NCBI GenBank assembly: GCA_029238555.1
Contig: JAQWFV010000032.1
Span: 1 to 14,422 of the forward strand
DNA: 14,422 nucleotides
DNA from: Flavobacteriaceae bacterium
GTDB taxonomy: Bacteria; Bacteroidota; Bacteroidia; Flavobacteriales; Flavobacteriaceae
Direction: 5' to 3'
Shown: one piece after another, positions 1 through 14,422 of the stretch
Numbering within the stretch: the first letter of the stretch is position 1
Layout: each line of letters opens with the position of its first letter
Notes under the pieces: generated by a model
What the model saw: the letters and a program-made list of their open reading frames with translations, nothing else
Databases searched by the model: none
What the model was told of the DNA's origin: nothing
Made by a program: the position numbers and the translations under genes

Positions 1-87
1 AAATTGGGTGCTGGGGTTTCTTGTGCGCTTAGGCTAAAAGAAAAACAAAGGCAGGCTAAAATGACTGCTTTTTTAAATAATTGCATG

Positions 88-235
88 GTACTGGTTTTTG
101 TCTGGTGCAAAGAACCATTACTAATGTTAAGTTATTGTAAATTGGGTGTTATGATATAATAAAGATTTAAAAAAAAGCAGCTGCCCCTAAGAACAGCTGC
201 AAGATTTCTAACGTATGACCGACAAAAACCAGTAC
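88..235. repeat. 15-bp perfect inverted repeat, 118 bp apart
   Basis: GTACTGGTTTTTGTC at 88-102 is the exact reverse complement of 221-235. Allowing one bulged T at 103, pairing continues three more bases (GGT at 104-106 against ACC at 218-220). The interior contains the minus-strand terminator at 169-200. No target-site duplication is obvious at the outer ends, so a MITE-like element is possible but unsupported. The alternative is a long-range RNA hairpin or a recombination relic. Confidence 0.6.
169..200 (-). terminator. Rho-independent terminator, minus strand
   Basis: GCAGCTG at 177-183 pairs perfectly with CAGCTGC at 194-200 around a 10-nt loop. On the minus strand the 7-bp GC-rich stem is followed directly by eight T residues (169-176 on the plus strand are all A). 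The plus strand lacks a T tract after the stem, so termination should be in the minus direction. It probably ends the transcript of the DUF5916 gene, 160 bp upstream, or of a separate small RNA. Confidence 0.82.
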
Positions 236-341
236 GTTATTAAGAAACCTACGTGGCTAGCACGCTGTACAAAGGTGGTGTGCATTTGTATTTTAAAAAT
301 GAACTAAACGTTAATAAACCATTAAATGCATGCCACTACCT
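169..341 (-). ncRNA. Candidate structured 3' UTR or small RNA
   Basis: Read on the minus strand, the segment between the DUF5916 stop and the terminator holds consecutive potential stem-loops. The first pairs 334-341 and 324-330 with 273-280 and 281-287 (8+7 bp, one G-U-type mismatch, a 3-nt bulge). The second is CGTG/CACG at 252-264. The third is TAACGTA/TACGTTA at 209-239. The last is the GC-rich terminator. This is more secondary structure than expected of a plain spacer. I find no clear TAnnTTTG promoter of its own, so a 3' UTR is as likely as an independent RNA. It matches no RNA family I recognise. Confidence 0.3.
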
Positions 342-360
342 ACTATTATCTTAAAGATAC

Positions 361-2565
361 CTACAAACCAAATTGGTACTGAAATTTAAAGTAAAGATTC
401 ACCCCATCTATTCTTAGGTCTCCAATTTGTTCTGCGTAGGAATACCCATTGGTGCCCCCAATGTAAAATATGGTGAATGGATTGGGGTTCCATTTGAGCA
501 AAGTTTGTACAAATGCCCCTTCGTTAAAGGAATTTACTTCTGAAACCAATCGAAGAGAGAGGTTTTGGTTGAACTGATAATTGGTGTTTCCCCTGACAAT
601 AAAACCCTCGTAAAAAGTATTTTTCCCGTCTAAATGTCTCAATCTGGAGTAGCGAATACTGGGGCTTACAGACCATTTGGGACTAAATTGGAAGTTGTTA
701 AAACTCCCTAGGAAAAAGTTTTTCCCCACCTCAGGAGCGTCTCCGTAAAAAATATTCTCTCCCCAAGAGGTGAATATTCTCATATTTACTTTTTCCGATG
801 GACTGAAACGAATGAAAAAGTTGTTTTCTGGCATATTGGTAGCGTTAAAGCCCTCGAACTCCTCATTGAGTACCAGAAATTTGCTGAATTCCATATTAAT
901 ATTTCCCGCCAATTGCATGGAAAGTCCCCCTCCGAAAGTGCTGTATTTTTTTAAACCGTCGTAATTGTGAATGACCTCACTACCCGTAAAGACATTCAAT
1001 TGCCTCAGGGTATTTTCTTTTTCAAAAAAGTGCTGGTACCCATGACCTAAAAACACCCTTTTAATACTGTTTCGTGTAATAAACCCAAGGGGCGTCTGAT
1101 AATGGGGACTATAATGTTCATAAAAGGCTTCTGAATTCCAATGCTTGGTATTTCTAGTCACCTTTAAGGCCAAGGCGTCTCCCTTGAGAGACTCCCCATC
1201 TAAGGCAATACTCTTGTCTTTAATACGCCCGCTATTGTCTATCCAATCTGCTTCAGGTTCTTTAATAACACTCTTACTGAATTCTGCCGTAAAAGCATAT
1301 TTTTCCTTCATCCTATACAGGGCGTTGAGTCCAAAGGTATTTCCTGAGCCTCCATCTGTAAAAAATCGGTTGGTGGTTAAAAAGCCCACATTTGAACCCC
1401 CTTTAAAAGTGCGCTGGTACCTTAATATATTTGCATAAGACGCTCCCCCTTGCTCTAGTACGGACTCGTTTTCTCCTGCCACTAAATACGGAGAAGATTC
1501 GTCGTAGGCAGTGAGCCAATACACCCTATTTTTCTCCCCCTGAGAGATGAGTTTTGAAGAAAAAAGCGGTTGATTAATAGCCCTGGTGTACACCGTATTA
1601 AGTTCAGAAGCAATCATGTCATTTCCCTCGTTAAAATAAGGACGACGCTCCGGAAATTCCACTGCAAAAGTATTGTTCACTGTGACCTGAGAAACGTCTG
1701 CTTCTACCTGAGAAAAGTCTGGATTAATGGTGTATTCCAAAGAGGCCGTATTGTTGAGGTCTATGAGTCCGCTAAGCCCCACGCCAGCGTCTAAGGCCCC
1801 ATATGACAAAGCACCCGCTACTTTTTCACCGGACCAACTTCCCACCATATTAGGGGTAAAAAGCAACCTGTTTTCTGATTTAATCCCTTCTAGATGAATG
1901 GTGCTCACCGCCTGACAGGGAAGGCAATTGTTGTTTCTATCTATGGCAATATTTAGGTTTTGGCTCCTGTTTTCCCCTGTGTAGGTTGAGCGGTATAAAA
2001 GGATGTTCCAATCATATTTAAGCGCCTTTTTAAACTGAAGGACATTAAAAGGAATTTTGAGTTCTACATGGTAAGCGTTTTCTTGTTTGCTGGCCTTGGA
2101 TTCAAAATTTATATCGTAGGATTCGTCGTCATTTCCGTCTGCGGTGAATTTCATATCTACCTGATTGCCTTCTGCATTGGCACCAAAATTAACCAAATAC
2201 CTGCCGTCTCCATAGGTGTCTATGCCAAACATCACCAGGTCGTCATTCCAAGCTTCATCCCTATTTCTAATAGAAGACCTCAGGGTTTTCATATCTGTGT
2301 AAGCTATAAATCCAACGTATAAATGGGTTTCAGAATAGCTCACAAATACTTCGGTGAGGTTTTCAGAAGGCGTATTATTTCCGGGATCTATCTCGTAATT
2401 GATCAGGAATTTCTGTGTATTCGCCCACTCCTGTTCCCCTACCACTCCGTCAAATTCAGGCACCTGAAACCTTTCTATTTTCTGAGCGGTTTCTTGGCCC
2501 CACAGGGCCGATACCATAAAGAGTGCACCTAAGAAAGGGGCAAAAATATTTAAGCGATGTTTCAT
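361..2565 (-). CDS. DUF5916 outer-membrane barrel with CBM9-like domain
   Basis: This is a 734-residue exported protein. The chosen start (MKHRLNIF) gives a clean signal peptide ending near WGQ; an in-frame ATG seven codons upstream (2586) is also possible, while the longest frame, opening at 2664, adds a non-signal-like leader. After the signal, roughly residues 30-215 resemble a CBM9/DOMON-like sandwich, with an FDGVVGEQEW opening and an AYHVELKIPF strand. The remainder is a DUF5916 barrel, marked by NPDFSQVEAD near residue 276 and FPERRPYFNEG near 305. The C-terminus (YFKFQYQFGL) is rich in aromatics, like outer-membrane barrels. The family's substrate is not established; a role in envelope carbohydrate or polymer handling is only a guess from the CBM9-like fold. 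It is transcribed away from the XRE operon and probably ends at the terminator at 200-169. Confidence 0.88.
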   Translation of the reverse strand: MKHRLNIFAPFLGALFMVSALWGQETAQKIERFQVPEFDGVVGEQEWANTQKFLINYEIDPGNNTPSENLTEVFVSYSETHLYVGFIAYTDMKTLRSSIRNRDEAWNDDLVMFGIDTYGDGRYLVNFGANAEGNQVDMKFTADGNDDESYDINFESKASKQENAYHVELKIPFNVLQFKKALKYDWNILLYRSTYTGENRSQNLNIAIDRNNNCLPCQAVSTIHLEGIKSENRLLFTPNMVGSWSGEKVAGALSYGALDAGVGLSGLIDLNNTASLEYTINPDFSQVEADVSQVTVNNTFAVEFPERRPYFNEGNDMIASELNTVYTRAINQPLFSSKLISQGEKNRVYWLTAYDESSPYLVAGENESVLEQGGASYANILRYQRTFKGGSNVGFLTTNRFFTDGGSGNTFGLNALYRMKEKYAFTAEFSKSVIKEPEADWIDNSGRIKDKSIALDGESLKGDALALKVTRNTKHWNSEAFYEHYSPHYQTPLGFITRNSIKRVFLGHGYQHFFEKENTLRQLNVFTGSEVIHNYDGLKKYSTFGGGLSMQLAGNINMEFSKFLVLNEEFEGFNATNMPENNFFIRFSPSEKVNMRIFTSWGENIFYGDAPEVGKNFFLGSFNNFQFSPKWSVSPSIRYSRLRHLDGKNTFYEGFIVRGNTNYQFNQNLSLRLVSEVNSFNEGAFVQTLLKWNPNPFTIFYIGGTNGYSYAEQIGDLRIDGVNLYFKFQYQFGL

Positions 2566-2698
2566 AAGTAATAGGTCAGTCTCCATGTGGTTGTTACCCT
2601 TTAAAGACGACACAGAAATGCAAACGTTACAAAAGTGTTTAATTCTTGAGTATTTTAAAGACAATTTGTATCAACAATTTAAAAAAGTCAACTTTCCT

Positions 2699-2767
2699 TT
2701 ACATTTTAAAAAAATTGATTACATTTGTCAAATAAACCTTACAAAATAGCAAGTAACATTTACATTT
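2699..2767 (+). promoter_or_regulatory. Promoter with three TTACATTT boxes
   Basis: The octamer TTACATTT occurs at 2699-2706, 2719-2726 and 2760-2767, with a one-mismatch copy (TAACATTT) at 2754-2761. Start-to-start spacings are 20 and 41 bp, close to two and four helical turns. The middle copy lies in TACATTTG (2720-2727), a perfect match to the Bacteroidota -7 box TAnnTTTG, 47 bp before the ATG at 2775. No good TTTG -33 box is seen; TTTA at 2698-2701 is the nearest. The iterated sites could be the operator of the XRE protein encoded in this operon. That is inference. Confidence 0.5.
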
Positions 2768-2774
2768 ATAACTT

Positions 2775-3182
2775 ATGAAAACTACAGAATCTTTTAAAGA
2801 ATTACAGCACAAAAGCACCAAGAGATTGGCTGTTTGGACCATGATTTGGGTGCTCAGTACAGCACTAGCTACTTTTGGCCCTGAAATGTTATGGGAAAAT
2901 TCCCTTTTCACTTACGCAGGCGTAGCTTTATTTTTAATCACAGGAGCTGCCATGATTTTGGCCAATAGAAAACACATTTTAAACTTGGATGAGTTGCAAC
3001 AACGCATGCATTTAGAAGCAATGGCCATTAGTTTGGGTGTGGCAGTAGTTTTGGGTTTGGGATTGTCCATCTTGGAGCAGCAAGATTTACTGGGTTTTAA
3101 AATGGATTTTGCCTTTATGACTATTGTGATTAGTTTGACATATTTGGCTGGATTAGCCATTAATACAAGACGTTTTAAATGA
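2775..3182 (+). CDS. Four-helix membrane protein paired with XRE regulator
   Basis: This 135-residue integral membrane protein has four hydrophobic helices near residues 19-35, 45-64, 82-100 and 111-130. Between helices 2 and 3 is a charged stretch, LDELQQRMHLEA. It recalls the conserved acidic signature of small DUF2178-type membrane proteins that sit beside YozG-like XRE regulators; I suggest this relation but cannot prove it by reading. The stop overlaps the next start as ATGA, which predicts translational coupling, so the two proteins are probably made together. In such pairs the membrane protein may be the target or the signal-sensing partner of the regulator. Its activity is unknown. 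Confidence 0.85.
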   Translation: MKTTESFKELQHKSTKRLAVWTMIWVLSTALATFGPEMLWENSLFTYAGVALFLITGAAMILANRKHILNLDELQQRMHLEAMAISLGVAVVLGLGLSILEQQDLLGFKMDFAFMTIVISLTYLAGLAINTRRFK

Positions 3183-3373
3183 AAAATAGCATTAAAGAAC
3201 TCAGGGCTAGGCACCAATTAACACAAGAAGATTTGGCCCACAAAGTAGGGGTATCTCGCCAAACCATCAATGCCATTGAAAAAGGAAAATTTGACCCCTC
3301 TTTGCCTTTGGCTTTTAAATTGGCCCATTTGTTTCACACCCCAATTGAGGGTATCTTTACCCATGAATCATAA
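3179..3373 (+). CDS. Small XRE/Cro-type HTH transcriptional regulator
   Basis: This 64-residue protein is almost entirely one helix-turn-helix domain. The helices include LTQEDLAHKVGVS (about 14-26) followed by the recognition helix RQTINAIEKGKFDPSL (27-42). The rest, LAFKLAHLFHTPIEGIF, is typical of the compact YozG-like XRE group, which usually has about 65-75 residues and no sensor domain. It begins inside the stop of the membrane-protein gene (ATGA) and is followed 4 bp later by a lipoprotein gene, so the three form an operon. It probably binds DNA as a dimer and may regulate its own promoter through the TTACATTT boxes. Signal input, if any, would have to come from a partner. Confidence 0.93.
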   Translation: MKNSIKELRARHQLTQEDLAHKVGVSRQTINAIEKGKFDPSLPLAFKLAHLFHTPIEGIFTHES

Positions 3374-3377
3374 ATAA

Positions 3378-4127
3378 ATGATTGTTATGGCAAAATATGT
3401 GTTGGGTTTTTTTGGATTGTTGCTGTTTTCTTGTGAGTTAACGCCAGAAATGGATGCAGACAGTCTCATTCAAAAAACGGTCGCAGCCCACGGATGGAAC
3501 CTAGGAAAACCCACTGAAATAGCCTTTGATTTTAGAGATTACCACTACGAGGTGAACAGGGACGCTTTTGGTGTCCGTTATTCCAGAGAAAAGCAAGACA
3601 GTTTAGGACTTACGAAAGACGTCTGGACCAATTTCAGCACTTTTGAAAGGACCCGAAATGCCCAAGCTGTAGTACTTTCAGATTCACTACAGACGGTCTA
3701 TGCCAATTCTTTAAATTCGGTGCTTTATTTTGCACAGTTGCCCTTGGGACTTCAGGACCAGGCTGTGATGGCAGAATACAAGGGTTTAACTCAGTTAAAC
3801 AATCAAAGCTACCACCAGTTGGCCATTACTTTTAAACAAGAAGGGGGTGGTGAAGATTTTCAAGACCAATTTTACTATTGGATACACAGCCTGCGTTTTG
3901 AAATTGATTTTATGGGGTATTCTTACCATACCAATGGGGGAGGTACCCGTTTTAGGGTAGGGAAAAACAAACAGCAAGTCAAGGGCCTTCTTTTTCAGGA
4001 TTTTGACAACTACAAACCCAAACAACATCCCAGCCCTTTAGATAGCCTCGCCATTTTATGGGAGCAACAAAATTTGGAGTGGCTTTCTGCCATAGAGAAT
4101 AGGGCTATTGAGGTGTACAGGGATTGA
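3378..4127 (+). CDS. DUF6503-like lipoprotein
   Basis: This protein has 249 residues, or 246 if ATG at 3387 is used. The N-terminus is a lipoprotein signal peptide, with hydrophobic FFGLLLFS before Cys19, the predicted lipid-modified residue, followed by Glu. The mature part begins with DADSLIQKTVAAHGW and a β-strand-rich segment, IAFDFRDYHYEV...FGVRYSREK, that resembles the Bacteroidota DUF6503 family of envelope lipoproteins. No catalytic motif is recognisable. It follows the XRE gene by 4 bp and precedes a hairpin at 4128-4161, so it is probably the last gene of the operon. Acidic residues after Cys are not arranged as a strong surface-export signal, so the protein may stay in the periplasm. 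Confidence 0.82.
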   Translation: MIVMAKYVLGFFGLLLFSCELTPEMDADSLIQKTVAAHGWNLGKPTEIAFDFRDYHYEVNRDAFGVRYSREKQDSLGLTKDVWTNFSTFERTRNAQAVVLSDSLQTVYANSLNSVLYFAQLPLGLQDQAVMAEYKGLTQLNNQSYHQLAITFKQEGGGEDFQDQFYYWIHSLRFEIDFMGYSYHTNGGGTRFRVGKNKQQVKGLLFQDFDNYKPKQHPSPLDSLAILWEQQNLEWLSAIENRAIEVYRD

Positions 4128-4161
4128 GTTAATTTTATATCTTAACGCTGGTAAAATTAAC
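4128..4161. repeat. 10-bp perfect inverted repeat after lipoprotein gene
   Basis: GTTAATTTTA (4128-4137) and TAAAATTAAC (4152-4161) are perfect reverse complements around a 14-nt loop. The left arm starts on the base after the lipoprotein stop. The right arm ends 16 bases before the apparent TTG start of the next gene. The stem is AT-rich and lacks a trailing T tract, so it is a poor intrinsic terminator. It may be a processing or stability hairpin, or an operator. Confidence 0.55.
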
Positions 4162-4177
4162 TAAGCGCGAATTCTTC

Positions 4178-4801
4178 TTGAAAAAATTAAAGTTGTTCTT
4201 ATTTTTTATGGTCACCACATTGGCCTCAGCCCAATTTTCTTTTGGAGTTGTGGCGGGTATAGATTTTGATACCGTCAATAATATAGATGCAGAGGTAGCG
4301 GCATTGGATAAAAACATCAACATATATGTAGGCCGTTCTGGCCATCATTTTGGCGGTTTTTTAAAATACAACTACCAAAATTGGTTTCTGAGGGTAGAAG
4401 CGCTTTCTCTGAGAAGAAACCATTCTTATAAGATACCTATTGTACTTACGGACACCAAGCGCATCATAACAGATTTTGATGTGACCCAATGGGACGTTCC
4501 TTTGCTTTTTGGATATAACCTCACTCGAGCTTTAAGGGTTTTTGCAGGTCCAAGATGGACTTTAAATCAGGCAGCAGTCTTTGAAGACAACCCCATTAAT
4601 GCATTAGAGCGCGCCAGGTTTGTAGGTACTCAATTGGGTTTGGGTTACCAGTACAAAAGATTTGAAATAGATGTGAGGTATTCTCTAAACGGACAGGACC
4701 ACGAGGTTAATTTTTTGCCAGAACCCATTGAAAACAAAAACCAATATATAAATTCACAGGGACAATTTGTGCTTTTAAGTTTGAGTGCTCACATTTTGTA
4801 A
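4178..4801 (+). CDS. PorT-like outer-membrane β-barrel protein, TTG start
   Basis: This 207-residue protein has an N-terminal signal peptide (KKLKLFLFF...TLASAQ, cleavage near residue 19) and alternating hydrophobic and polar strands typical of the small Bacteroidota 'porin family / PorT-like' barrels. Examples are YNYQNWFLRVEAL, VPLLFGYNLTRALRVFAGPRW and GLGYQYKRFEIDVRYSL, ending in LLSLSAHIL. The start is unusual: TTG at 4178 is the only reasonable codon. The frame upstream is closed by TAA at 4130-4132 without an ATG, and the first internal ATG would destroy the signal peptide. The gene lies 50 bp after the lipoprotein and 19 bp before the Asp-box gene, with which it is probably co-transcribed. 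The substrate or partner is unknown. Confidence 0.85.
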   Translation: MKKLKLFLFFMVTTLASAQFSFGVVAGIDFDTVNNIDAEVAALDKNINIYVGRSGHHFGGFLKYNYQNWFLRVEALSLRRNHSYKIPIVLTDTKRIITDFDVTQWDVPLLFGYNLTRALRVFAGPRWTLNQAAVFEDNPINALERARFVGTQLGLGYQYKRFEIDVRYSLNGQDHEVNFLPEPIENKNQYINSQGQFVLLSLSAHIL

Positions 4802-4820
4802 ACTTTTTAAATAAAAAATT

Positions 4821-7800
4821 ATGAAAAAATATTTTTTCCTTTTAGTGGCTATTGCCTCAGCTAATATTGTTTTAGGACAGGTAGAAGAGGCCTTTTCCTC
4901 CATGGTGAAATACAGAAATATTGGCCCTTTTAGAGGCGGCAGGTCGGTAGCGGCTTCTGGGGTGGTTCAAGATCCATTGACCTATTATATGGGTACGACG
5001 GGGGGTGGATTGTGGAAGACAGAAGACGCGGGCCAACATTGGAACAATGTGTCTGATGGGTTTTTTAATACAGGCTCCGTTGGTGCGGTGGCGGTGTCTG
5101 AAAGCCATCCCAATATTATTTATGTGGGTATGGGAGAGCACGCACCAAGGGGGGTTATGACCACTTATGGAGACGGGGTTTATAAATCATTAGACGGCGG
5201 TAAGACCTGGCAACATTTGGGTTTAGAGGCCACACAGCATATTTCAAGAATTAGAATTCACCCCAGCAATCCGGATATTGTTTACGTAGCTGCTCAAGGC
5301 GCTTTGCATGGACCCAATCCAGAACGGGGTATTTATAAGACTACTGACGGTGGTAAAAATTGGGTAAAACAACTTTTTGTGAACACCCTTAGTGGGGCTG
5401 CTGAATTGTCTATGGATATGCAAAATCCAGAAGTGCTTTACGCCGCCATGTGGGAACACCAAAGATTGCCTTGGCAGGTGGTGAGTGGGGGTCCTGGTAG
5501 TGGTCTGTACAAAACAACAGACGGCGGCGCCCATTGGACCGAACTAAAAGAAGGTTTGCCAGCAGAGAAAGGAAAAATGGCCATTGCAGTATCTAGGGCC
5601 AATCCCTCTAAAGTGGTGGCGCTCATTGAAAGCGACTCTAAGCAAGAAAAAGGGGGCTTATTTGTTTCTGAAGACTCAGGAGAAAATTGGACCAGGATTT
5701 CTGCAGACCATAGACTCATTCAGCGTGCCTGGTACTATACTGAGGTGTTTTTAGATCCTTTAGACGCAGACACCATTTATGTCATGAGTGCTACTGCTTA
5801 TAAATCTATCGATGGAGGAGCCCATTGGGAGGAAATGAATCCTGCCCATGGAGACTACCACGATCTATGGATACACCCAACCAATAACAAGCAAATGGTC
5901 TTGGCAGACGACGGCGGTGCGGCCATTAGTTTTAATGGTGGAGACAGTTGGTCCTCTCAAAACAACATGCCAACCGCTCAGTTTTACAGGGTAAACGCAG
6001 ACCATTTATATCCTTATAATATCTATGGCGGACAACAGGACAACACCAGTGTTCGGATTGCGAGTCTTGCGCTGGGAAGTGGGGGTATTGGGGAAGAGAG
6101 TTGGGAGGCATCGGCCGGAGGCGAAAGTGCCTTTTTAGCTTTTGACCCAGACCAGCCAGATGTAGTGCTTGGAGGGAGTTATCTGGGGACTATAGACGCT
6201 TATTATCCCAAGAGTAAATCCAGTACCAATATCATGATAGACCCCATTCAGTATTTGGGTATGGCGGCCAGTGAAATGACATATCGTTTTAATTGGAACG
6301 CCCCTATTATTAGGTCTGTTCATGAGGAGAATACTTATTTTCATGGGGCGCAGTACCTACTCAAAACCACAGACGTAGGCCAGAGTTGGGCTGTGATTTC
6401 TCCTGATTTGACCATGAACGACAAGTCCAAGCAGGTGCACGGTGGTGGTCCTTACACTATTGAAGCAGTTGGGGCAGAAAATTATGGCACACTCGCTTAT
6501 GTGGTGGAATCTCCCCATGAAAAAGGAGTTCTATACACCGGCTCAGATGACGGTCTGGTGCATTTGACCAAAGATGGGGGTAATACTTGGAAAAATGTGA
6601 CCCCCCGGGGTTTGCCAGAAACCATTATAAACGCCATTGAGGTCTCGCCTCATGATCCTGCCACGGTTTATATAGCCACCACCCGCTATAAATTTAACGA
6701 CAAAATGCCTGGACTCTACAAAAGTGTAAATTATGGCGCGCGATGGGAAGAAATATCGGCTGGAATTCCAGAGGGGTCCTTTACTAGGGTAGTTCGCGAG
6801 GACCCTGTGGTGAAAGATTTGCTTTTTGCAGGTACAGAAAAGGGGGTATATTACTCCTTAAATGGCGGAAAAAATTGGGAAACATTACAGTTAAACCTGC
6901 CTAATGTTCCTGTTACAGACTTGCTGATTAAACACAATGACCTTATAGTAGCCACTCAGGGCCGTTCTTTTTGGGTGTTAGATGACTTAGCCCTCATTAG
7001 ACAAGCCAAACCAATGGCTTTAAATGGGATTCAATTTTTCACACCTGAACCGGCTATTTTAGGGAATTGGTACAGTAGTATGAATGCTGCTGAACCCAAA
7101 GGGACTGATATTCTACAAGGGGTGAATCCTACGAACGGAGTAGTGTTTTATTACCATTTACCAGAAGGAATTTCTGAGAAGGACATTTCTTTGGAGATCA
7201 GGGATGCTAATAACCATCTGATTAGACGTTTTATTGGGATTAAAGATCAAACATATAAAGCCTATGAAGGTGCGCCTAGTCCAGCGCCTTTGTTGGGTGT
7301 GAACAATGGCTTGAATCGTTTTGTATGGGATATGAAACACCCCAGCTTGCCTGGTATTCCTGAGGCTTATATAGAAACCAGTTATAGTGGTCACAGGGCG
7401 TTGCCTGGAGTGTATAAAGCCATTTTACGCGTTGGAGAAGTCCAAAAACAGGTAGTGGTAAGCTTAGACAATAGCCCTTTAGAAGCTGTAGATGAAAAGG
7501 CACTCTTAGAATGGGACACTTTTATGACTGCAGGAGAAAAGACCTATAGAGAAATGGCAGCAATGGTCAATACACTGTATCCTTTACAATTGACCTTAGA
7601 GGGTTTGTTGGGCCATGATAAAATTTCTGGAAATGCGGCCTTAAAGCTGGCTGTTACTGAAGTATTGGAAACTGCCGTATCTTTTGACAATGACATGATC
7701 CAACGTTTGTCTAAAGCCTATGACGATGTAGAAAATTACCCCAATAAATTCACGGCTTCATACCTGTATGTACTGAACCAAACTGTGGGTAGCTTGCCTA

Positions 7801-7946
7801 AGCTAAATACTGGTTCTGTATCTAGAATGGCTGTTTTAAATAAAGAATGGGCCCTTTTAAAAGCCAGAGGGGAACACCTTAAAAATGATAAAATCCCCCA
7901 ATTGAATAAGCTGCTTTGGGAAGCAGGGATTGGGGCTATAGATTAA
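4821..7946 (+). CDS. Exported sortilin/Vps10-like Asp-box β-propeller protein
   Basis: This is a 1041-residue protein with a signal peptide cleaved near VLGQ (residue 20). Residues about 30-710 carry at least eleven Asp-box/BNR motifs (S/T-x-D-x-G-x-x-W and variants), near residues 66, 121, 172, 230, 282, 328, 370, 516, 583, 634 and 679. This is the pattern of sortilin/Vps10-like or BNR propellers often annotated as 'glycosyl hydrolase'. Around 720-880 is a β-rich linker with a FlgD-like Ig segment ([14 protein letters not shown]...[12 protein letters not shown]). The last ~160 residues are helical. Asp boxes are structural and do not prove hydrolase activity. No type IX sorting domain is seen, so the periplasm or envelope is the likely site. 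It is probably in one operon with the preceding barrel gene. Confidence 0.9.
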
Positions 7947-7984
7947 TCTAATATAAATTGATCTTATTGGATAGAAAGGTAGCC

Positions 7985-8012
7985 CAAAAGGCTTTTGATT
8001 TTTATAAAAAGC
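7985..8012. terminator. Possible weak bidirectional terminator
   Basis: Between the convergent Asp-box and porin genes, CAAAAG/CTTTTG (7985-7997) and GCTTTT/AAAAGC (7991-8012) form alternative 6-bp hairpins with nearby T and A runs. They lie where a shared terminator is expected, but the stems are short and AT-rich. A 22-codon open frame without ATG (7958-8026, TTG start) covers the same bases. Confidence 0.3.
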
Positions 8013-8028
8013 AATTAGGAGAATGATT

Positions 8029-9147
8029 TTAAAATAGCTTGTACTTGAGACGAAGGATGCCTACAAGGGCATTTTTCACCTGCGGATCTACTCCAGGATT
8101 TACAATATACTGGCTGTCTAATTGTACTTCTATTTGGTCACTTATAACATAATTGTAATACGCTTCTATCACTGTTTCTGATCGGTCTGAGCTTCTTGAA
8201 AGATTATTACGGTAAGTGTCCGACAGATTTCCTTGCCCCCATGCCAATCCTAATTGGTCTTGAGCTCTTTTTTTAAAGGCTCCGTAATAGACCATACCTA
8301 AGCCTTTATAATTAGAAAAGACAGAAGCATTATTTGGGACACGACCGTATTGTGCAAAAGCGTGGAGCCCTTGTGTAGGATCTTCATTTTCGGTTAAAAG
8401 GGTTTGGTCCATAATGGCGTAAAACCCGCTTTCTCTTTGACTATGGCCTTGTAGTGACCAAACACCCATCTTGTAGGTGCTTATTTGAGTTTTTTCTTTT
8501 GTTATTTGATAGTCTATTTCCCCAATCCAAAACAAACCTCGTTTGCTGTTTAAGGAAAAGTCATAGGATTTTAAATACCCTATTTCCGTATTTGGGCGGC
8601 CGTCATATACCGCTGCACTGAGATGAAAGTTTTTTTGTAATTGTATGTTGGTGTAAATGCCCATGGCGGCATAGGGAAAAGTAGCTAAGGGTACATTCAC
8701 GGACATTTCTGGACCTATACCAAAAGAGCTGTGAATGAAACCCATTCCATGGGTGCTGTAGGCAAACAGCGCATTGATTTCAGATTTACCTACCATGAGT
8801 TTATGGCCTTTGAATTTTTGTTCTATAATAAGCTCGTAGAGGTAAATATTCCTTGGTGCTTCTATATTACTGATGGTTTGTAAATCTCCCACATAATCGG
8901 TGAGTGGTTTTCCGTGGTTAAGCACATGCTGGCCTTTTAAACTGGCACCGCTCCACAAGCTTGTTTCATGTGAGAGTGAAATGAACCCCATCAGGGTTTC
9001 TCCTTGGGCAATACCTCCATCTATGACACGACTAAAATCTTCCACGAGATCTAGTCCAATGTTTGTTTTAGATTGGGCATTGAGCTTTGAAATACCAATG
9101 AGGCTAATAAGACAAAAAAAGATCGGTATTAGGTATTTACACTTCAT
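8029..9147 (-). CDS. OprB-like carbohydrate-selective porin
   Basis: This 372-residue protein has a signal peptide (hydrophobic stretch 6-20, cleavage near LNAQ at 22-25). The mature sequence shows OprB-family features: VGDLQTISNIEA followed by LYELIIEQKF (about residues 85-110), many amphipathic strands, and the C-terminal block ETVIEAYYNYVIS...LDSQYIVNPG...NALVGILRLKY, ending in Phe as outer-membrane barrels do. OprB porins form channels for sugars and related small solutes across the outer membrane; substrate specificity cannot be read here. It is convergent with the Asp-box gene and divergent from the first membrane regulator. The start ATG at 9147 sits 17 bp downstream of a good -7 box. 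It is slightly short for the family but appears intact. Confidence 0.88.
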   Translation of the reverse strand: MKCKYLIPIFFCLISLIGISKLNAQSKTNIGLDLVEDFSRVIDGGIAQGETLMGFISLSHETSLWSGASLKGQHVLNHGKPLTDYVGDLQTISNIEAPRNIYLYELIIEQKFKGHKLMVGKSEINALFAYSTHGMGFIHSSFGIGPEMSVNVPLATFPYAAMGIYTNIQLQKNFHLSAAVYDGRPNTEIGYLKSYDFSLNSKRGLFWIGEIDYQITKEKTQISTYKMGVWSLQGHSQRESGFYAIMDQTLLTENEDPTQGLHAFAQYGRVPNNASVFSNYKGLGMVYYGAFKKRAQDQLGLAWGQGNLSDTYRNNLSRSSDRSETVIEAYYNYVISDQIEVQLDSQYIVNPGVDPQVKNALVGILRLKYKLF

Positions 9148-9163
9148 AATATGGGAACAAGCA

Positions 9164-9194
9164 CAAAAGTATGTATAATAGCAATACTATGAAA
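9164..9194 (-). promoter_or_regulatory. Promoter of the OprB-like porin gene
   Basis: On the minus strand, TACTTTTG (9171-9164) matches the Bacteroidota -7 box TAnnTTTG exactly. TTTC (9194-9191) lies 19 nt upstream, one base off the -33 TTTG. The predicted transcript would start roughly 10 nt before the ATG at 9147. The -33 position abuts the inverted repeat at 9194-9214. Confidence 0.5.
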
Positions 9195-9214
9195 ATCCAG
9201 CGCTTAGCTGGATT
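9194..9214. repeat. 8-bp perfect inverted repeat at porin promoter
   Basis: AATCCAGC (9194-9201) and GCTGGATT (9207-9214) are perfect reverse complements with a 5-nt spacer. No T tract follows on either strand, so it is not an intrinsic terminator. It touches the -33 region of the porin promoter, which suggests a dimeric regulator site. That role is inference. Confidence 0.55.
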
Positions 9215-9242
9215 AAGCACTAAACTTGGAAGTAATTTGAAA

Positions 9243-9256
9243 TTAAAATATTTTAA
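9243..9256. repeat. 14-bp AT-only perfect palindrome
   Basis: TTAAAATATTTTAA reads the same on both strands. It lies in the intergenic region between the porin and the first membrane regulator, 130 bp before that gene's ATG. It resembles, in composition and outer bases, the longer AT-only palindrome at 11539-11561. In AT-rich DNA such a palindrome can occur by chance. Confidence 0.4.
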
Positions 9257-9386
9257 AAGGCTTTGCTGCGTCAAATTAGCTTATTATTAGGTGGTTATAC
9301 TTCTACCATTATTGCATCACTATCGTTTATACCCCTTATTTAAAGCACGTCTTTTCTTTTAATTTTAACACTTATAATATTTGATT

Positions 9387-10115
9387 ATGAACAAGTTATA
9401 TTACTTTGTTTGTTTTATTTTTTTAAGTGCTCAAATTAGTTTTGGACAATCTCATATTAAAGATAAAATTGAGTCGCCTTTTTTGTTTACGGATAACAAT
9501 AAAATTTACTTACTGACTAGTGATAGTATTTTTGACTTGTCATATAATCCTTGGAGTGCTCGTAAACACTCCTTGACAATATCCAATTACAGTTTTGTTG
9601 GGAATCAAACCAATAGTTTCCTAATTAATGACACTACTCGCAGTGCATTGGTATTTAAAGACGGCGTCTTTATTACTTTAAATAATGATTATGTTCTTGG
9701 TCATTCAAGAATTCCTTTGCAGACAGGTTTGCCTACTTACATTTATATTTTAGGTCTAATTCTTTTGTCTATAATCACGGCACTCATACTGCACTATAGG
9801 AAAAAAGATCAAAGAGTAAACTTAGCTAATCTAAATAATGACTCTTTAGAGTTGTTAGAATCAGAGCTTAATCAAGAAGAATTATTACTTTTTAAAAAAA
9901 TATTTTTTGCTGCTCCAGAGTATATATCTTTCCCTGAGCTTATGACTATTTACGACCAGGACCTTACCTACGATAGTCTAAAAAAGAAACTCAGGCACTC
10001 CTTAACCGAAATTGAGAAAAAGAGCCAAATACTTTTGAAGATAAACAGAAATATATTTGAAGAGCGAAGATCTGTGGAGGATAAAAGAATAAAGTGTATT
10101 CGAATCATGCCTTAA
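9387..10115 (+). CDS. Membrane-anchored regulator-like protein, short paralog
   Basis: I know no named family for this 242-residue protein. The visible layout is a signal peptide (MNKLYYFVCFIFLSAQISFG), an exported segment of about 95 residues (22-115), one membrane helix (about 116-136), a basic stop-transfer (HYRKKDQR) and a cytoplasmic domain (about 150-242). That last domain has EELLLFKKIFFAAPEYISF, then PELMTIYDQDLTYDSLKKKLR, then an ERRSVEDKRIK tail. The helix-loop-helix with a basic YDSLKKKLR helix reads like a winged-helix DNA-binding domain, but this is inference. It is paralogous to the next gene at both ends but lacks the ~190-residue kelch-like part. ATG at 9387 was chosen over TTG at 9381. 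Confidence 0.8.
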   Translation: MNKLYYFVCFIFLSAQISFGQSHIKDKIESPFLFTDNNKIYLLTSDSIFDLSYNPWSARKHSLTISNYSFVGNQTNSFLINDTTRSALVFKDGVFITLNNDYVLGHSRIPLQTGLPTYIYILGLILLSIITALILHYRKKDQRVNLANLNNDSLELLESELNQEELLLFKKIFFAAPEYISFPELMTIYDQDLTYDSLKKKLRHSLTEIEKKSQILLKINRNIFEERRSVEDKRIKCIRIMP

Positions 10116-10117
10116 AT

Positions 10118-10140
10118 AAATAAGGGTAAACCTATTTTTT
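10118..10140 (+). terminator. Possible intrinsic terminator after short paralog
   Basis: AAATAAGG (10118-10125) pairs with CCTATTT (10131-10137) around the loop GTAAA, with one bulged A. A T-rich tract runs on to 10140 and resumes after CCC. The position, 3 bp after the stop, fits termination. The stem has only two G-C pairs, so read-through into the next gene, or use as a regulatory site, is plausible. Confidence 0.4.
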
Positions 10141-10188
10141 CCCTATTTTTTTATTTTACTTAATTTATAATTTTATTGCATAATAAAT

Positions 10189-11496
10189 ATGCTTATGAAA
10201 TTTATATTTACATTATTTTTTCTTCAAACAATTTTTTTAGGGAATATTACGGCCCAAAACAAGGATGTTTTAGAGGGCTCCAATTTGTTGCTTTTTTCTT
10301 TTCAAGAAGATTCTTTTTTAATTTCGGGAGATTCCATTTACACAGTGTCAGATTCGCCATGGACTGCAAAGCTTCATGGATTAGAAAACTTGACCTATAA
10401 TTTTGTGTCCCAAGGTGATTTGGCTTATTTAGTGAACAGTTCTAATGGTGTGGTGTATTCTTTTGAAGAACAGGCTTTTAAGCGATTGGACCAATCTGAG
10501 CCTTTTTTATCCCAATTCGGTCATTTTCCGTTTATAAAAGACCGTAAGCTGTTTACTTTTGGGGGTTATGGTTTATTTACCCATAAAAATATCATTACCC
10601 AGTTCAATTCAGCCGTTGGAGAGACTGCTTTACAGCCCACCATCACCAAGCAGAGAGAAATGATTCCTGGTTTATACAAACCTATGGGCCAGTTTGTAGA
10701 TAATACTCTTTTTATAGCTTCCGGAGAGATATATAATGAAGACAGTCCCTTTAAATTAGACATTAAGCATTTAACGGAAGCATGGCGTTTTGATTTTGAC
10801 ACATTAGAATGGTTTTATTTAGGTCAGCTTAACGAGATGCTTTCTAAAGGATACAGGTTGTCATTACTCAATTATCCAGAGGGGAGTTTATACCTGGATT
10901 TTGACACAGCTTTTTCTTTAGATTTCCCCAACAATAAGATCCATCTCTATAAAGGTTCTCAAATGCTAAATTTGGCTTCTATAGAAGCATTAACTTATAA
11001 TCAGTCCAAAGGAGGCTTTTACCTTATTAAAAAGCGCAATAGGCTACAAAAAGAGCTTTTGTTTTTAAATAATTCAGAGATGTTAGGGGATTTGGTGGAA
11101 ACCTACCCTATTTATTCAAATACGATACCTTGGGTGGAGTATACTATTTTAGCGGTAGTTTTTTTAATTATCCTTTATTTTGCCCTTAGAAAAAAGAAAA
11201 CTTTAGAGGCAAAAATCAGTAGAAAAAAGATTTCCTTATACAAAACTTTAAGTAGTACAGAGCAAGAGATTTTAAATATTTTGCTTCATTCTTCACCTGA
11301 TTATGTTCCTTTTCCTAAACTAATGCAGCTCTTTAATCAAGACCTGTCTTATGACAATCTTAAAAAGAAACTACGTGGCGCCTTAGATTCCTTAGACCAA
11401 AAGCTTATGGTCTTTTTCAAGTATAAAGAGTCTTGTTTGGCAGAGCGAAAGAGTATTGAAGACGCTAGAGTGAAAGAGGTTAAGCTTAAAGGCTAG
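10189..11496 (+). CDS. Kelch-like propeller/TM/winged-helix-like membrane regulator
   Basis: This is a 435-residue protein; ATG at 10195 (MKFIF) is an equally good start. A signal peptide ends near ITAQ (residue 22). An N-terminal segment with DSIYTVSDSPWTAK matches DSIFDLSYNPWSAR of the upstream paralog. Residues about 105-220 show kelch-like features: LFTFGGYG near 121-128, then DNTLFIASGEIY, AWRFDFDTLEWFYLG near 198-210. A single membrane helix lies near 312-335, followed by RKKKT. The cytoplasmic C-terminus, about 352-435, carries STEQEILNILL, FPKLMQLFNQDLSYDNLKKKLR and ERKSIEDARVK, closely matching the paralog. I infer an extracytoplasmic sensor with a DNA-binding output. The large surface-protein gene 121 bp downstream is the natural candidate target. 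A non-DNA-binding, protein-interaction role for the C-terminus is the main alternative. Confidence 0.82.
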   Translation: MLMKFIFTLFFLQTIFLGNITAQNKDVLEGSNLLLFSFQEDSFLISGDSIYTVSDSPWTAKLHGLENLTYNFVSQGDLAYLVNSSNGVVYSFEEQAFKRLDQSEPFLSQFGHFPFIKDRKLFTFGGYGLFTHKNIITQFNSAVGETALQPTITKQREMIPGLYKPMGQFVDNTLFIASGEIYNEDSPFKLDIKHLTEAWRFDFDTLEWFYLGQLNEMLSKGYRLSLLNYPEGSLYLDFDTAFSLDFPNNKIHLYKGSQMLNLASIEALTYNQSKGGFYLIKKRNRLQKELLFLNNSEMLGDLVETYPIYSNTIPWVEYTILAVVFLIILYFALRKKKTLEAKISRKKISLYKTLSSTEQEILNILLHSSPDYVPFPKLMQLFNQDLSYDNLKKKLRGALDSLDQKLMVFFKYKESCLAERKSIEDARVKEVKLKG

Positions 11497-11538
11497 CCAA
11501 ACGAAGCTTGCTTTTGATGGTTTTATACTTATTTAGCA

Positions 11539-11561
11539 TTAAATAAAAACTTTTTATTTAA
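11539..11561. repeat. 23-bp AT-only perfect palindrome upstream of surface gene
   Basis: TTAAATAAAAA (11539-11549) and TTTTTATTTAA (11551-11561) are perfect reverse complements around a single C. The one-base spacer rules out a normal RNA hairpin, so this is better read as a DNA-level site. It lies 21 bp upstream of a perfect -7 box, across the usual -33 region. It could be an operator or an A/T-tract activating element. Confidence 0.55.
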
Positions 11562-11582
11562 ACTTAGTTACAACTTAAATAG

Positions 11583-11590
11583 TATATTTG
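11583..11590 (+). promoter_or_regulatory. -7 promoter box of the large surface-protein gene
   Basis: TATATTTG matches the Bacteroidota -7 consensus TAnnTTTG exactly. No clean TTTG is found at the usual -33 distance; TTTA at 11557-11560 lies 22 nt upstream, inside the AT-only palindrome. A transcript from here would start near 11594-11597, at the left arm of the hairpin below, giving a leader of only about 21-24 nt. Confidence 0.5.
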
Positions 11591-11591
11591 A

Positions 11592-11634
11592 AAATAGGGG
11601 GTATTTAAGGATCACCCATGAATACCCCCTATTT
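11592..11634 (+). promoter_or_regulatory. 14-bp perfect hairpin enclosing the start codon
   Basis: AAATAGGGGGTATT (11592-11605) and AATACCCCCTATTT (11621-11634) are perfect reverse complements around a 15-nt loop. The ATG at 11618-11620 forms the last three loop bases, and codons 2-6 form the right arm. In mRNA this would place the initiation site in a strong stem-loop close to the 5' end. Possible roles are translational control, transcript stabilisation, or a dyad operator over the transcription start. If translation really begins downstream (GTG at 11678), the structure would lie wholly in the leader. Confidence 0.65.
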
Positions 11635-14422
11635 GCTTTTCAGGTTTTCTGAAGGGTTTACTATTTATTATAATTTAGTGAAGGGAGTTCTGTTGTGCAT
11701 ATCTTTAATACTTAGCACATCATTCTTGTGGGCTTCTCCTGCTAGCAAAAACTTTCCAGAGCCCAAACTTAAAAATGATTCTATAGTAAATAGCCCATAT
11801 ACTTATCAAAAATCTTACATCCTCCCTGTATTAAATAAAAGGGTTTTAGAATCATCTAAGGATGTCTCAGAGATACTTATGGCAGATCCAGGAGGGGTTG
11901 GGTCAGGATTAAAGTTATGGCTCAAAGCAGACGCTGGGGTGTCATTAGATATTAATACAAACGCTGGTATTTGGAGTGATCAAAGTGGGCTAAATAAACA
12001 TGCAAACAATAGTGGAACAAACTTAAGCAGTAATGGTTCAGGTACCCCTTCCATAACTTATAATACTACTTCAAATCTTATAAACTACAACCCCAATCTT
12101 GCCTTTAATTTTGAACAGTTAAAAGTGGGCCTAGATATAAATCCATTAGCCATAGGCGATATGGATATTTATGTAGTCGTAGATGGAAATAACGCTATTC
12201 TTGGAAATGAAAACGGCGGTGTAGATCGCTCCATTGCGCCCAATAGGGTTTCCAATGGAGTAGATATACAAGATTATTTCTTTGGTTCAGGAGATAGCAG
12301 GTATAACGATCAATTAAAAATAATTCATTATTCCTTTGGCGCGACTTCAAATGCTGCAGCAACAAGCGTAATTAATGTAAATAGTAAGCTTATAAAAACA
12401 TTTACGGAGCAAAATTCTAATGGTGGTTACACAGATTTATATATCGGTAATGCGGGTAGTGTGGGGAGTTTTTCAGGCCAAATAGCAGAAATAATCATTT
12501 ATGATCAAAACCTAATAGGGGAGTATAAATCTAAAGTAGATACTTATTTGTCATTAAAATATGGAATTAGCTTAGATAATTCTACAACGACAGATTATGT
12601 AGCTAGTGATGGATCGCTTGTTTTTGACGCCTCTGCCAATAGTGGTTACACTACTGGGGTTTTTGGCCTAGGAAGAGATGACGACAGTTCGTTGAATCAG
12701 AGAATATCAAATAATGGTGGATCAGACTTGCTAGTAGCTTTGCAAAACAATTTTAGTTTAGCAAATAATAGTGGTAGTAGAAATGTAAATCACTCTAACA
12801 ATAATCAGTACCTCATTATTTCTAACAACGGATTAGCCAATACCTCAGACTCGGATAATGTTAATACAGATATTTTTGAAAGTCGATTTAGAAGGATTTG
12901 GAAAGTTAATTTAGCTGGGAGTTTTGATCAAGATGTGGCCCTTAGGTTTGACGCATTTGGCTCCAGTGTACCCGCAAATCAAAGATATTTACTGACAGAT
13001 GACGACGGTGATTTTTCCAATGGGGGAACAATAAACGAAGGCGTTTTAGCCACTGATAAAACGATCAGTGATGTTCGCTTTATTAGTGCAAGACCTTATT
13101 TTACAATTGCTAGAATTTCTTCCCTATCAGATCCTGGTCTTTCTGGTTTTGATAATACCACTAAGGTATATACAGATGTAGATTTCACCTATGACACGCC
13201 TACTACTTCTAGCACAGGAACGATTACTTATTCAAGTGAAGACACCTCAATTGCTAGCATTAATTCAAGCACTGGCGTAGTCACAATCCAAGGTGTTGGA
13301 ACTACCATTATTAGCGCGGGTCTGGCTGCTACAGATACCCATAGATCAGGGACCATCACGGCTACATTAACCGTTAATAAAGCTGGTTTAACCATTACCG
13401 CTAATAATGAATCTAAGACCTATGATGGGAATGCGTTTATTGGAACATATAGCATAACCAGTTCAGGATTTAGATCTGGTGAGGATATTTCTAATTTAGG
13501 AGGTAGCTTATCTTTTTCTGGAGCTGCCATTACAGCTACTAGTGCAGGGACTCATATTATCACTCCAGGGGGGTATTTAAGTAATAATTACAACTTTACT
13601 TATGTAAATGGAAGTCTTTTAATCAATAAGAAAAATCTGATAATTTCTGGAATAATCGCTAGTGAAAAACAATATGACGGAAATACTACCGCTACTATCA
13701 ATATCCTAAATGCAGATTATGCTGGATTAGAAACGGGAGATGATGTTGGATTATTAATAAGTACAGGAGTTTTTGACACCAAGGACGTGGGCACAGGAAA
13801 AACAGTCACTCTCACCAATACTTATGGCGGAACAGATCTAGGCAATTATACAATTGTTGACCAGACTAGTACTACGGCCAGTATATTGGCCAATGACAAC
13901 GTCTTAGATTTTGACGGAGCCAATGACTATTTGTTATTGCCTCAAGCGATTAGCTCTAATTTATCTTCTAGCTTATTTACCATTGAAGGATTTGTAAAGC
14001 TAACAAGTTATAATAGTTCTAATAGACAAGTTTTTTTTGTAGCAAGAAATAGTGCTGCAAATGACAGATGTATTTTTTATATCGAAAATGGCTCACCTAT
14101 TTTAAAAGTTTTTGTAAGCCAAGGTAATAGTATTGACTTTATTGGTGTGTCTGATGAAATATCTATTAACAAATGGTACCATTATGCATTAGTTAAAGAC
14201 GGTGTGAAATCTTTTAAATTTTATGTGAACGGAGCTTTAGTTAGTGACGACATTAGTACGTCTTCATTAACCAGTATTGACGTAAATCAGGCTCCAATTA
14301 TGGGATCTGATTATTATCCTGGTCCTACCTCAAGATCTAATTATTTTAGCGGCCAGTTGGACGAATTTAGAATTTGGAATGAGGCCAGATCTTTGACTGA
14401 TATTCAAAATAATATCAATAAT
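11618..14422 (+). CDS. Large multidomain surface protein, 3' end outside window
   Basis: The frame stays open for 935 codons to the window edge, so the gene is partial. An unusually long, partly polar N-region (1-22) precedes a hydrophobic signal core (24-38, cleavage near WASPA). Residues ~90-315 form a concanavalin A-like domain opening with LKLWLKADAGV and WSDQSG. About 316-505 match a DUF8202-type region (KYGISLDN, DYVASDGSLVFDA, GLGRDDDSSLNQ). About 506-587 are a Big_2-like Ig domain (SSEDTSIASINSSTGVVTI). About 588-672 are an MBG repeat (KTYDGNAF) and 673-757 a YDG repeat (KQYDGNTTATI). From 762 on is a LamG domain (LDFDGANDYL, KWYHYALVKDG, GQLDEFRIWNEA), still unfinished at the edge. 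Such Bacteroidota proteins are usually secreted adhesins, often carrying a C-terminal type IX sorting domain. That domain, if present, is not visible here. Confidence 0.9.
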   Translation, partial: MNTPYLLFRFSEGFTIYYNLVKGVLLCISLILSTSFLWASPASKNFPEPKLKNDSIVNSPYTYQKSYILPVLNKRVLESSKDVSEILMADPGGVGSGLKLWLKADAGVSLDINTNAGIWSDQSGLNKHANNSGTNLSSNGSGTPSITYNTTSNLINYNPNLAFNFEQLKVGLDINPLAIGDMDIYVVVDGNNAILGNENGGVDRSIAPNRVSNGVDIQDYFFGSGDSRYNDQLKIIHYSFGATSNAAATSVINVNSKLIKTFTEQNSNGGYTDLYIGNAGSVGSFSGQIAEIIIYDQNLIGEYKSKVDTYLSLKYGISLDNSTTTDYVASDGSLVFDASANSGYTTGVFGLGRDDDSSLNQRISNNGGSDLLVALQNNFSLANNSGSRNVNHSNNNQYLIISNNGLANTSDSDNVNTDIFESRFRRIWKVNLAGSFDQDVALRFDAFGSSVPANQRYLLTDDDGDFSNGGTINEGVLATDKTISDVRFISARPYFTIARISSLSDPGLSGFDNTTKVYTDVDFTYDTPTTSSTGTITYSSEDTSIASINSSTGVVTIQGVGTTIISAGLAATDTHRSGTITATLTVNKAGLTITANNESKTYDGNAFIGTYSITSSGFRSGEDISNLGGSLSFSGAAITATSAGTHIITPGGYLSNNYNFTYVNGSLLINKKNLIISGIIASEKQYDGNTTATINILNADYAGLETGDDVGLLISTGVFDTKDVGTGKTVTLTNTYGGTDLGNYTIVDQTSTTASILANDNVLDFDGANDYLLLPQAISSNLSSSLFTIEGFVKLTSYNSSNRQVFFVARNSAANDRCIFYIENGSPILKVFVSQGNSIDFIGVSDEISINKWYHYALVKDGVKSFKFYVNGALVSDDISTSSLTSIDVNQAPIMGSDYYPGPTSRSNYFSGQLDEFRIWNEARSLTDIQNNINN

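Follow-up and report, generated by a model that had tools for sequence, protein, structure and literature searches.

Transmembrane transcription regulators (TTRs) such as ToxR, CadC and TcpP are one-component proteins with a membrane helix and a cytoplasmic DNA-binding domain. ToxR and CadC have the ToxR-like order, which begins with a cytoplasmic DNA-binding domain and ends with a periplasmic domain. The Reg_prop/Y_Y_Y regulators of Bacteroidota (BT4673-type, PDB 3ott), which are one-component or hybrid regulators, have a periplasmic propeller, a membrane helix and a C-terminal DNA-binding domain of the AraC or LuxR type. The MarR family possesses a winged helix with a D-x-R wing, and its soluble members dimerise through helices that flank the winged helix on both sides. 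Here we describe two adjacent genes, designated the short form and the long form, in a stretch of 14,422 nucleotides from a Flavobacteriaceae bacterium (GenBank assembly GCA_029238555.1, contig JAQWFV010000032.1, positions 1 to 14,422; hereafter the window). Both probably encode inner-membrane one-component transcription regulators with a kelch sensor outside, reduced to a remnant in the short form, and a winged helix inside, and a local target is likely.

The open reading frames (ORFs) of the two genes are separated by 73 bases on the plus strand (Table 1). The short form was read from the ATG at 9387, while the ORF list puts its start at TTG 9381. BLASTP aligned the membrane helix and C-terminus of the long form with those of the short form at 29% identity (E 7e-20), and the N-terminal stretches at 28% identity (E 7e-9). 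The local-alignment score of the cytoplasmic parts was 175, as compared with a maximum of 57 in 1000 shuffles, and that of the N-terminal parts was 103 (shuffle maximum 64, 1000 shuffles). The E value of 7e-20 and scores far above those of the shuffles rule out chance similarity, and the two forms are paralogs. Their paired motifs are DSIFDLSYNPWSA / DSIYTVSDSPWTA and FPELMTIYDQDLTYDSLKKKLR / FPKLMQLFNQDLSYDNLKKKLR, and ERRSVEDKRIK / ERKSIEDARVK at the C-terminus. A sequence-only reading of the window had described adjacent genes with a common signal peptide, N-terminal motif, single membrane helix and C-terminal domain, and about 190 extra residues in the larger protein. These shared features were confirmed, and the measured length difference is 193 residues.

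Each protein has one membrane helix after the signal peptide. Over stretches of 15 residues on either side of this helix, the net charge is -2 before and +7 after it in the long form, and +1 and +3 in the short form. Because the flanking charges are positive-inside, the C-terminus of both proteins is predicted to be inside, in agreement with the cytoplasmic location proposed before. A net positive charge after the helix was observed in 22 of the 24 family genes listed; it was zero in both genes of locus L053.

In the AlphaFold2 model of the long form (35-row alignment, mean predicted local distance difference test (pLDDT) 84.6, predicted template modelling score (pTM) 0.65), the C-terminus forms helices at residues 347-353, 356-368, 375-379 and 388-410 followed by a hairpin at 417-433, with pLDDT of 90-95 per block from residue 341 on. 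The model of the short form (42-row alignment, 242 residues, mean pLDDT 78.2, pTM 0.42) has the same C-terminal fold, with pLDDT of 84-94 for this domain. Structural matches of the winged helix include MepR, SlyA and MarR. A C-terminal profile was built from 32 of 35 genes, leaving out the L005 fragment and both L057 genes, and was compared with the PDB; winged-helix regulators, among them MarR and OmpR/PhoB types, accounted for 28 of the 32 sequences matched at E <= 10. The best matches were AdcR (E 1.3e-4), DrrD (3.8e-4) and the ToxR DNA-binding domain (1.8e-3). In the AdcR alignment, the D-x-R of the kelch regulator family falls on the D-A-R of AdcR. D-x-R is invariant in the aligned C-terminal domains (32/32). 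Of 57 family genes, 55 have it among their final 75 residues, as compared with 21% after shuffling; the two genes without it are one that lost its winged helix and one remnant. The long-form winged helix contains 17 Lys and Arg and 12 Asp and Glu residues. The AlphaFold2 models, the structural matches and the PDB profile matches thus bore out the earlier proposal of a C-terminal winged helix, by a check that had been set beforehand.

In neither window protein did a Pfam DNA-binding model reach E <= 1. Weak Pfam matches were obtained in one or two relatives each to TrmB (0.0059), Trans_reg_C (0.0079) and SarA/Rot (0.043), these three being among the 25 families listed of 35, and to FUR (0.044). 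NCBIfam applied to 30 rows gave MsvR in one row (4.1e-4) and mutarotase models in 2-3 rows, and the other NCBIfam scans gave no or irrelevant matches. Ten phylum-level members contained no DNA-binding model at E <= 0.01.

The 24 predicted strands in the periplasmic part of the long form are, in our reading, six blades of four. All of the top 50 Foldseek matches of the long-form model were kelch propeller chains. PF24681 matched 36 of the 42 aligned family rows at E <= 0.1 (best 1.3e-14), and the window long form alone gave E 0.0089, which falls short of the Pfam cut-off; the assignment as a kelch propeller is thus based on PF24681 in the relatives and on the fold matches. In the short-form model, the eight strands look like the first two four-stranded blades, and blades 3-6 appear to be missing as a unit. 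The sequence-only reading had assigned a kelch-like sensor to the larger protein and none to the smaller. The former holds, whereas the short form is not sensor-free, since it keeps what look like two blades.

In outline, the models would make these proteins TTRs that resemble ToxR with the order reversed, with a kelch propeller for the sensor and a winged helix that has no name. They share with ToxR, CadC and TcpP the one-component design, the membrane helix and the cytoplasmic domain, and the ToxR domain is among the profile matches. Unlike in ToxR and CadC, the putative DNA-binding domain is C-terminal, behind a signal peptide, and the sensor is a kelch propeller; the reversal of predicted domain order and topology rules out a ToxR-like regulator in the strict sense. 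The order of propeller, helix and DNA-binding domain is that of the Reg_prop/Y_Y_Y regulators, and the short form gave 3ott as one of several weak fold matches (E 0.13). The long form differs from them in its kelch blades, its one small propeller and its winged helix. Pfam found no Reg_prop, Y_Y_Y or kinase domain in the window proteins or among the 21 families listed for 42 rows at E <= 0.1, and the absence of both Reg_prop and Y_Y_Y rules out this class. As in the MarR family, there is a winged helix with D-x-R near the end, for which AdcR was the best match by profile and MepR, SlyA and MarR matched by structure. Unlike MarR proteins, those of the window end just after the wing and are tethered to the membrane; the domain follows a membrane helix and has no dimerisation helices behind it (the long-form hairpin ends with a strand at 429-433 of 435 residues), which excludes the MarR family itself. 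An OmpR/PhoB response regulator was also rejected, since Pfam found no receiver domain and the N-terminal part is a propeller. The pair would resemble the co-component systems of the ToxR/ToxS and VtrA/VtrC types (PMC9214523) in that adjacent membrane partners act jointly at the envelope, but the window partners are paralogous and both retain a winged helix.

TTRs have been surveyed in PMC10269533, where the DNA-binding domains were found with Pfam models. The window proteins have a predicted transmembrane region and no DNA-binding domain found by Pfam. Because the survey was based on such models, it would probably miss the kelch regulator family. The earlier reading knew of no named family; the larger kind does have a name, that of the TTRs in the survey, whereas no name was found for the kelch regulator family itself. 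Among the open-licence papers listed for kelch regulators in Bacteroidetes or flavobacteria, none dealt with such a protein, judging by title and abstract, and no paper was listed for the MarR wing.

The long form has 50 homologs at E <= 0.01 and 53 with a profile, and the short form has six, some of which are fragments or near-identical. The named relatives belong to Flavobacteriaceae and one Bacteroidetes metagenome-assembled genome (MAG), and seven family loci are in six named MAGs. Full-length profile matches were obtained in 10 of 12 genomes of the genus of G001, in 27 of 397 genomes of one family and in 35 of 395 Bacteroidota genomes sampled, where each draw includes the centre genome, no more than four candidates were scored in any genome of the two large draws, and some matches cover the kelch part only, so that the architecture is not common to all. 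When genomes were scanned with only the long protein, 17 stretches fit a pattern, none of them a relative. Loci L110-L138 contain 31 ORFs that match the full profile. Among the 23 that are not 838-869 amino acids long, 19 have D-x-R at the end, and four of 377-485 amino acids lack it. The eight kelch proteins of 838-869 amino acids (L126, L127, L129, L131-L134 and L137) have a different C-terminus without D-x-R and may represent a further class of kelch membrane proteins or regulators.

In a 65-row tree built from the membrane helix and C-terminus, the short forms of the window, P0053 and P0055 made up a clade with 100/100 support within a 39-row clade (99/96), the remainder of which are long forms; the support for the sister relationship was 81/22. 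By this placement, the short form is likely to be an old and derived paralog rather than a fragment recently split off the neighbouring gene. Separately, winged-helix ends persist as short ORFs at L098 (4188-4523 and 5407-5757) and L005 (1621-1947), where the upstream propeller is decayed or missing.

Table 1. Features of the kelch regulator pair and of the adjoining region, in window coordinates. AF2, AlphaFold2.
Feature	Position	Strand	Details
Short-form regulator gene	9387..10115	+	ORF; 242 aa from ATG; same-length relatives P0053 (64% identity) and P0055 (63%)
Signal peptide, short form	9387..9449	+	Residues 1-21; invariant Q at end (alignments); hydrophobic N-terminus; AF2 helix 2-21
Propeller remnant, short form	9480..9680	+	Residues 32-98; eight AF2 strands, aligning to the first eight of the long form
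Membrane helix, short form	9735..9806	+	Residues 117-140; hydropathy, AF2 helix
Winged helix, short form	9837..10106	+	Residues 151-240; predicted cytoplasmic
Long-form regulator gene	10189..11496	+	ORF; 435 aa; 50 homologs at E <= 0.01
Signal peptide, long form	10189..10257	+	Residues 1-23; hydropathy, alignment, AF2
Kelch propeller, long form	10285..11106	+	Residues 33-306; 24 AF2 strands; predicted periplasmic
Membrane helix, long form	11131..11187	+	Residues 315-333; mean hydropathy 2.25; AF2 helix
Winged helix, long form	11227..11487	+	Residues 347-433; predicted cytoplasmic; D-x-R = D425, R427
Palindrome, 14-bp perfect arms	11592..11634		Spans presumed ribosome-binding site and start codon of LamG/YDG/MBG gene
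Candidate target, LamG/YDG/MBG surface protein	11618..14422	+	Pfam: Laminin_G_3 1.1e-23, YDG 1e-17, MBG_2 4.3e-11

The neighbourhoods of 56 family genes or remnants were inspected in the window and 47 loci (L001-L007, L053-L072 and L089-L108; L102 gave none). Since the regions were picked from matches, and L053-L057 because the matches came in pairs, they give no estimate of pair frequency. A same-strand downstream gene is present for 26 of the 56, by raw counts, and its kind varies. A consistent neighbour, as anticipated by the sequence-only reading, was found within subgroups, whereas no single neighbour recurs throughout; a universal target gene adjoining the family is ruled out, since the 26 downstream genes differ by subgroup. 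In the window, the downstream gene encodes a surface protein with LamG, YDG and MBG domains; it is cut by the window end, and its start at 11618 is the first ATG, chosen by us. LamG-type genes are directly downstream at four loci, namely the window, L006 and L068 (both G005) and L007 (G006). Pfam detected proteins with a type IX secretion system (T9SS) tail beside the family genes of L006, L007 and L068, with LamG above the cut-off in L007 and L068 and just below it in L006; at L002, a T9SS-tailed protein without LamG is 622 bases away. TonB receptors are encoded 23-69 bases downstream at L065 (Pfam), at L070, where the gene seems to be split between two ORFs, and at L093, L097 and L101 (by eye), and 583 bases downstream at L001. 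Each of the five loci L053-L057 has a Glycos_transf_4-type gene (by Pfam in L053 only) between two family genes, one of which directly adjoins the transferase gene or overlaps it by at most four bases. Wzz-like genes lie beside four of these loci (not L056), and SLBB genes were seen in L053-L055. The neighbours in these three subgroups are, judging by their sequences, of envelope or surface functions. Family genes also adjoin polysaccharide genes at L098, L103 and L107; the types, including those of L053-L057, are Glycos_transf_4, Wzz, SLBB and NusG-like (Pfam for L053 and L103). A BNR/Sortilin-type protein is encoded upstream of the regulators in the window (4821-7946), and a similar-looking protein directly upstream of a family gene in L099 (3501-6632; by eye). 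An OprB-type porin gene (8029-9147, minus strand) is divergent from the short-form gene.

The palindrome across the start of the surface-protein gene has perfect arms longer than any others in the window; 30 Markov shuffles gave none of at least 12 bp. The stretch 11560-11660 has an RNA fold z of -4.35. Among 26 same-strand downstream gaps examined, two of them in the window, the 24 others contained no 14-bp palindrome, and four of these 24 contained palindromes of 9 to 11 bp. The palindrome could serve as an operator or form a hairpin in the RNA.

The DNA binding, the signal, the role of the partner and the target are what we infer beyond the paralogy, architecture, predicted topology and folds, and family spread computed directly. 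The periplasmic kelch propeller of the long form would act as the sensor. Binding of a ligand or partner, probably a glycan or a component of the envelope, would shift how the membrane helix pairs or tilts, and this would alter DNA binding by the membrane-proximal winged helix. The short form, an older paralog without blades 3-6, would most likely be a partner or modulator of a full-length regulator. The likely target is the adjacent LamG/YDG/MBG gene, and possibly the regulator pair itself. The signal-transducing transcription factor of the earlier reading is thus retained as to its outside sensor, membrane helix and cytoplasmic winged helix, as given by the models and the profile, whereas its binding to DNA is kept as a supposition. 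Several observations weigh against our reading. Just six of the 32 PDB profile matches are below 0.05, with the best E at 1.3e-4, and the winged-helix segment of the short form (148-242) is not net basic (16 Lys and Arg versus 17 Asp and Glu). As to a local target, many loci adjoin unrelated genes (e.g., L003, L058, L062, L104 and L105), and the four LamG loci represent three genomes, with L006 and L007 looking like one syntenic locus.

The winged helix could instead be a protein-protein module that relays the signal to a sigma factor, RNA polymerase, an export machine or some other soluble partner. This is unlikely, since the profile matches are mostly (28 of 32) bacterial DNA-binding proteins and the near-invariant D-x-R sits at the D-A-R of AdcR. 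It is conceivable as well that the short form is a non-functional copy in decay, as it lacks four of the six blades and degenerate copies occur elsewhere (the L098 remnants and a G001 stretch with six internal stops). However, its reading frame is intact, its same-length relatives at 64% and 63% identity fall with it into the 100/100 clade, and a 98%-identical protein, P0051, represents 129 member sequences, which makes decay very improbable.

More weight has to be given to the view that the pair acts on genes elsewhere, with the LamG gene a bystander and the palindrome an RNA element or terminator. The proposed mechanism is compatible with this and only the target differs. The family has no universal neighbour, and the palindrome lacks a counterpart at the other family loci and coincides with a strong RNA fold, whereas LamG-type proteins recur directly downstream at four loci in three genomes. 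We regard a distant target as a real possibility, somewhat short of an even chance.

With membrane-tethered regulators as the preferred reading, the freshest aspect is the pairs with opposite losses. Adjacent or near-adjacent family pairs are present in the window, L053-L058 and L090. The window partner lacks most of the propeller, and a 361-residue member at L057 (8616-9701) has the propeller and membrane helix and lacks the winged helix; its frame overlaps the convergent next gene by 14 bases. The opposite losses, of four blades and of the winged helix, fit heteromeric partners, in two cases only. Two-blade lectins of the RSL/BambL type form a six-bladed ring by trimerising. By analogy, flavobacteria might split sensing and DNA binding between paired tethered paralogs, in which three copies of the two-blade remnant, or the remnant together with the long form, could restore a ring of six blades, and the stoichiometry of the partners would be the signal; we consider this extension a long shot.

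If our reading is correct, there is in Bacteroidota a family of membrane-bound transcription factors that current domain models leave unnamed, and its sensor fold, kelch, is more familiar from eukaryotes. The question of partners can be tested directly on the pairs with opposite domain losses. The reading would also suggest controllers of some flavobacterial surface lectins, TonB receptors and exopolysaccharide genes.
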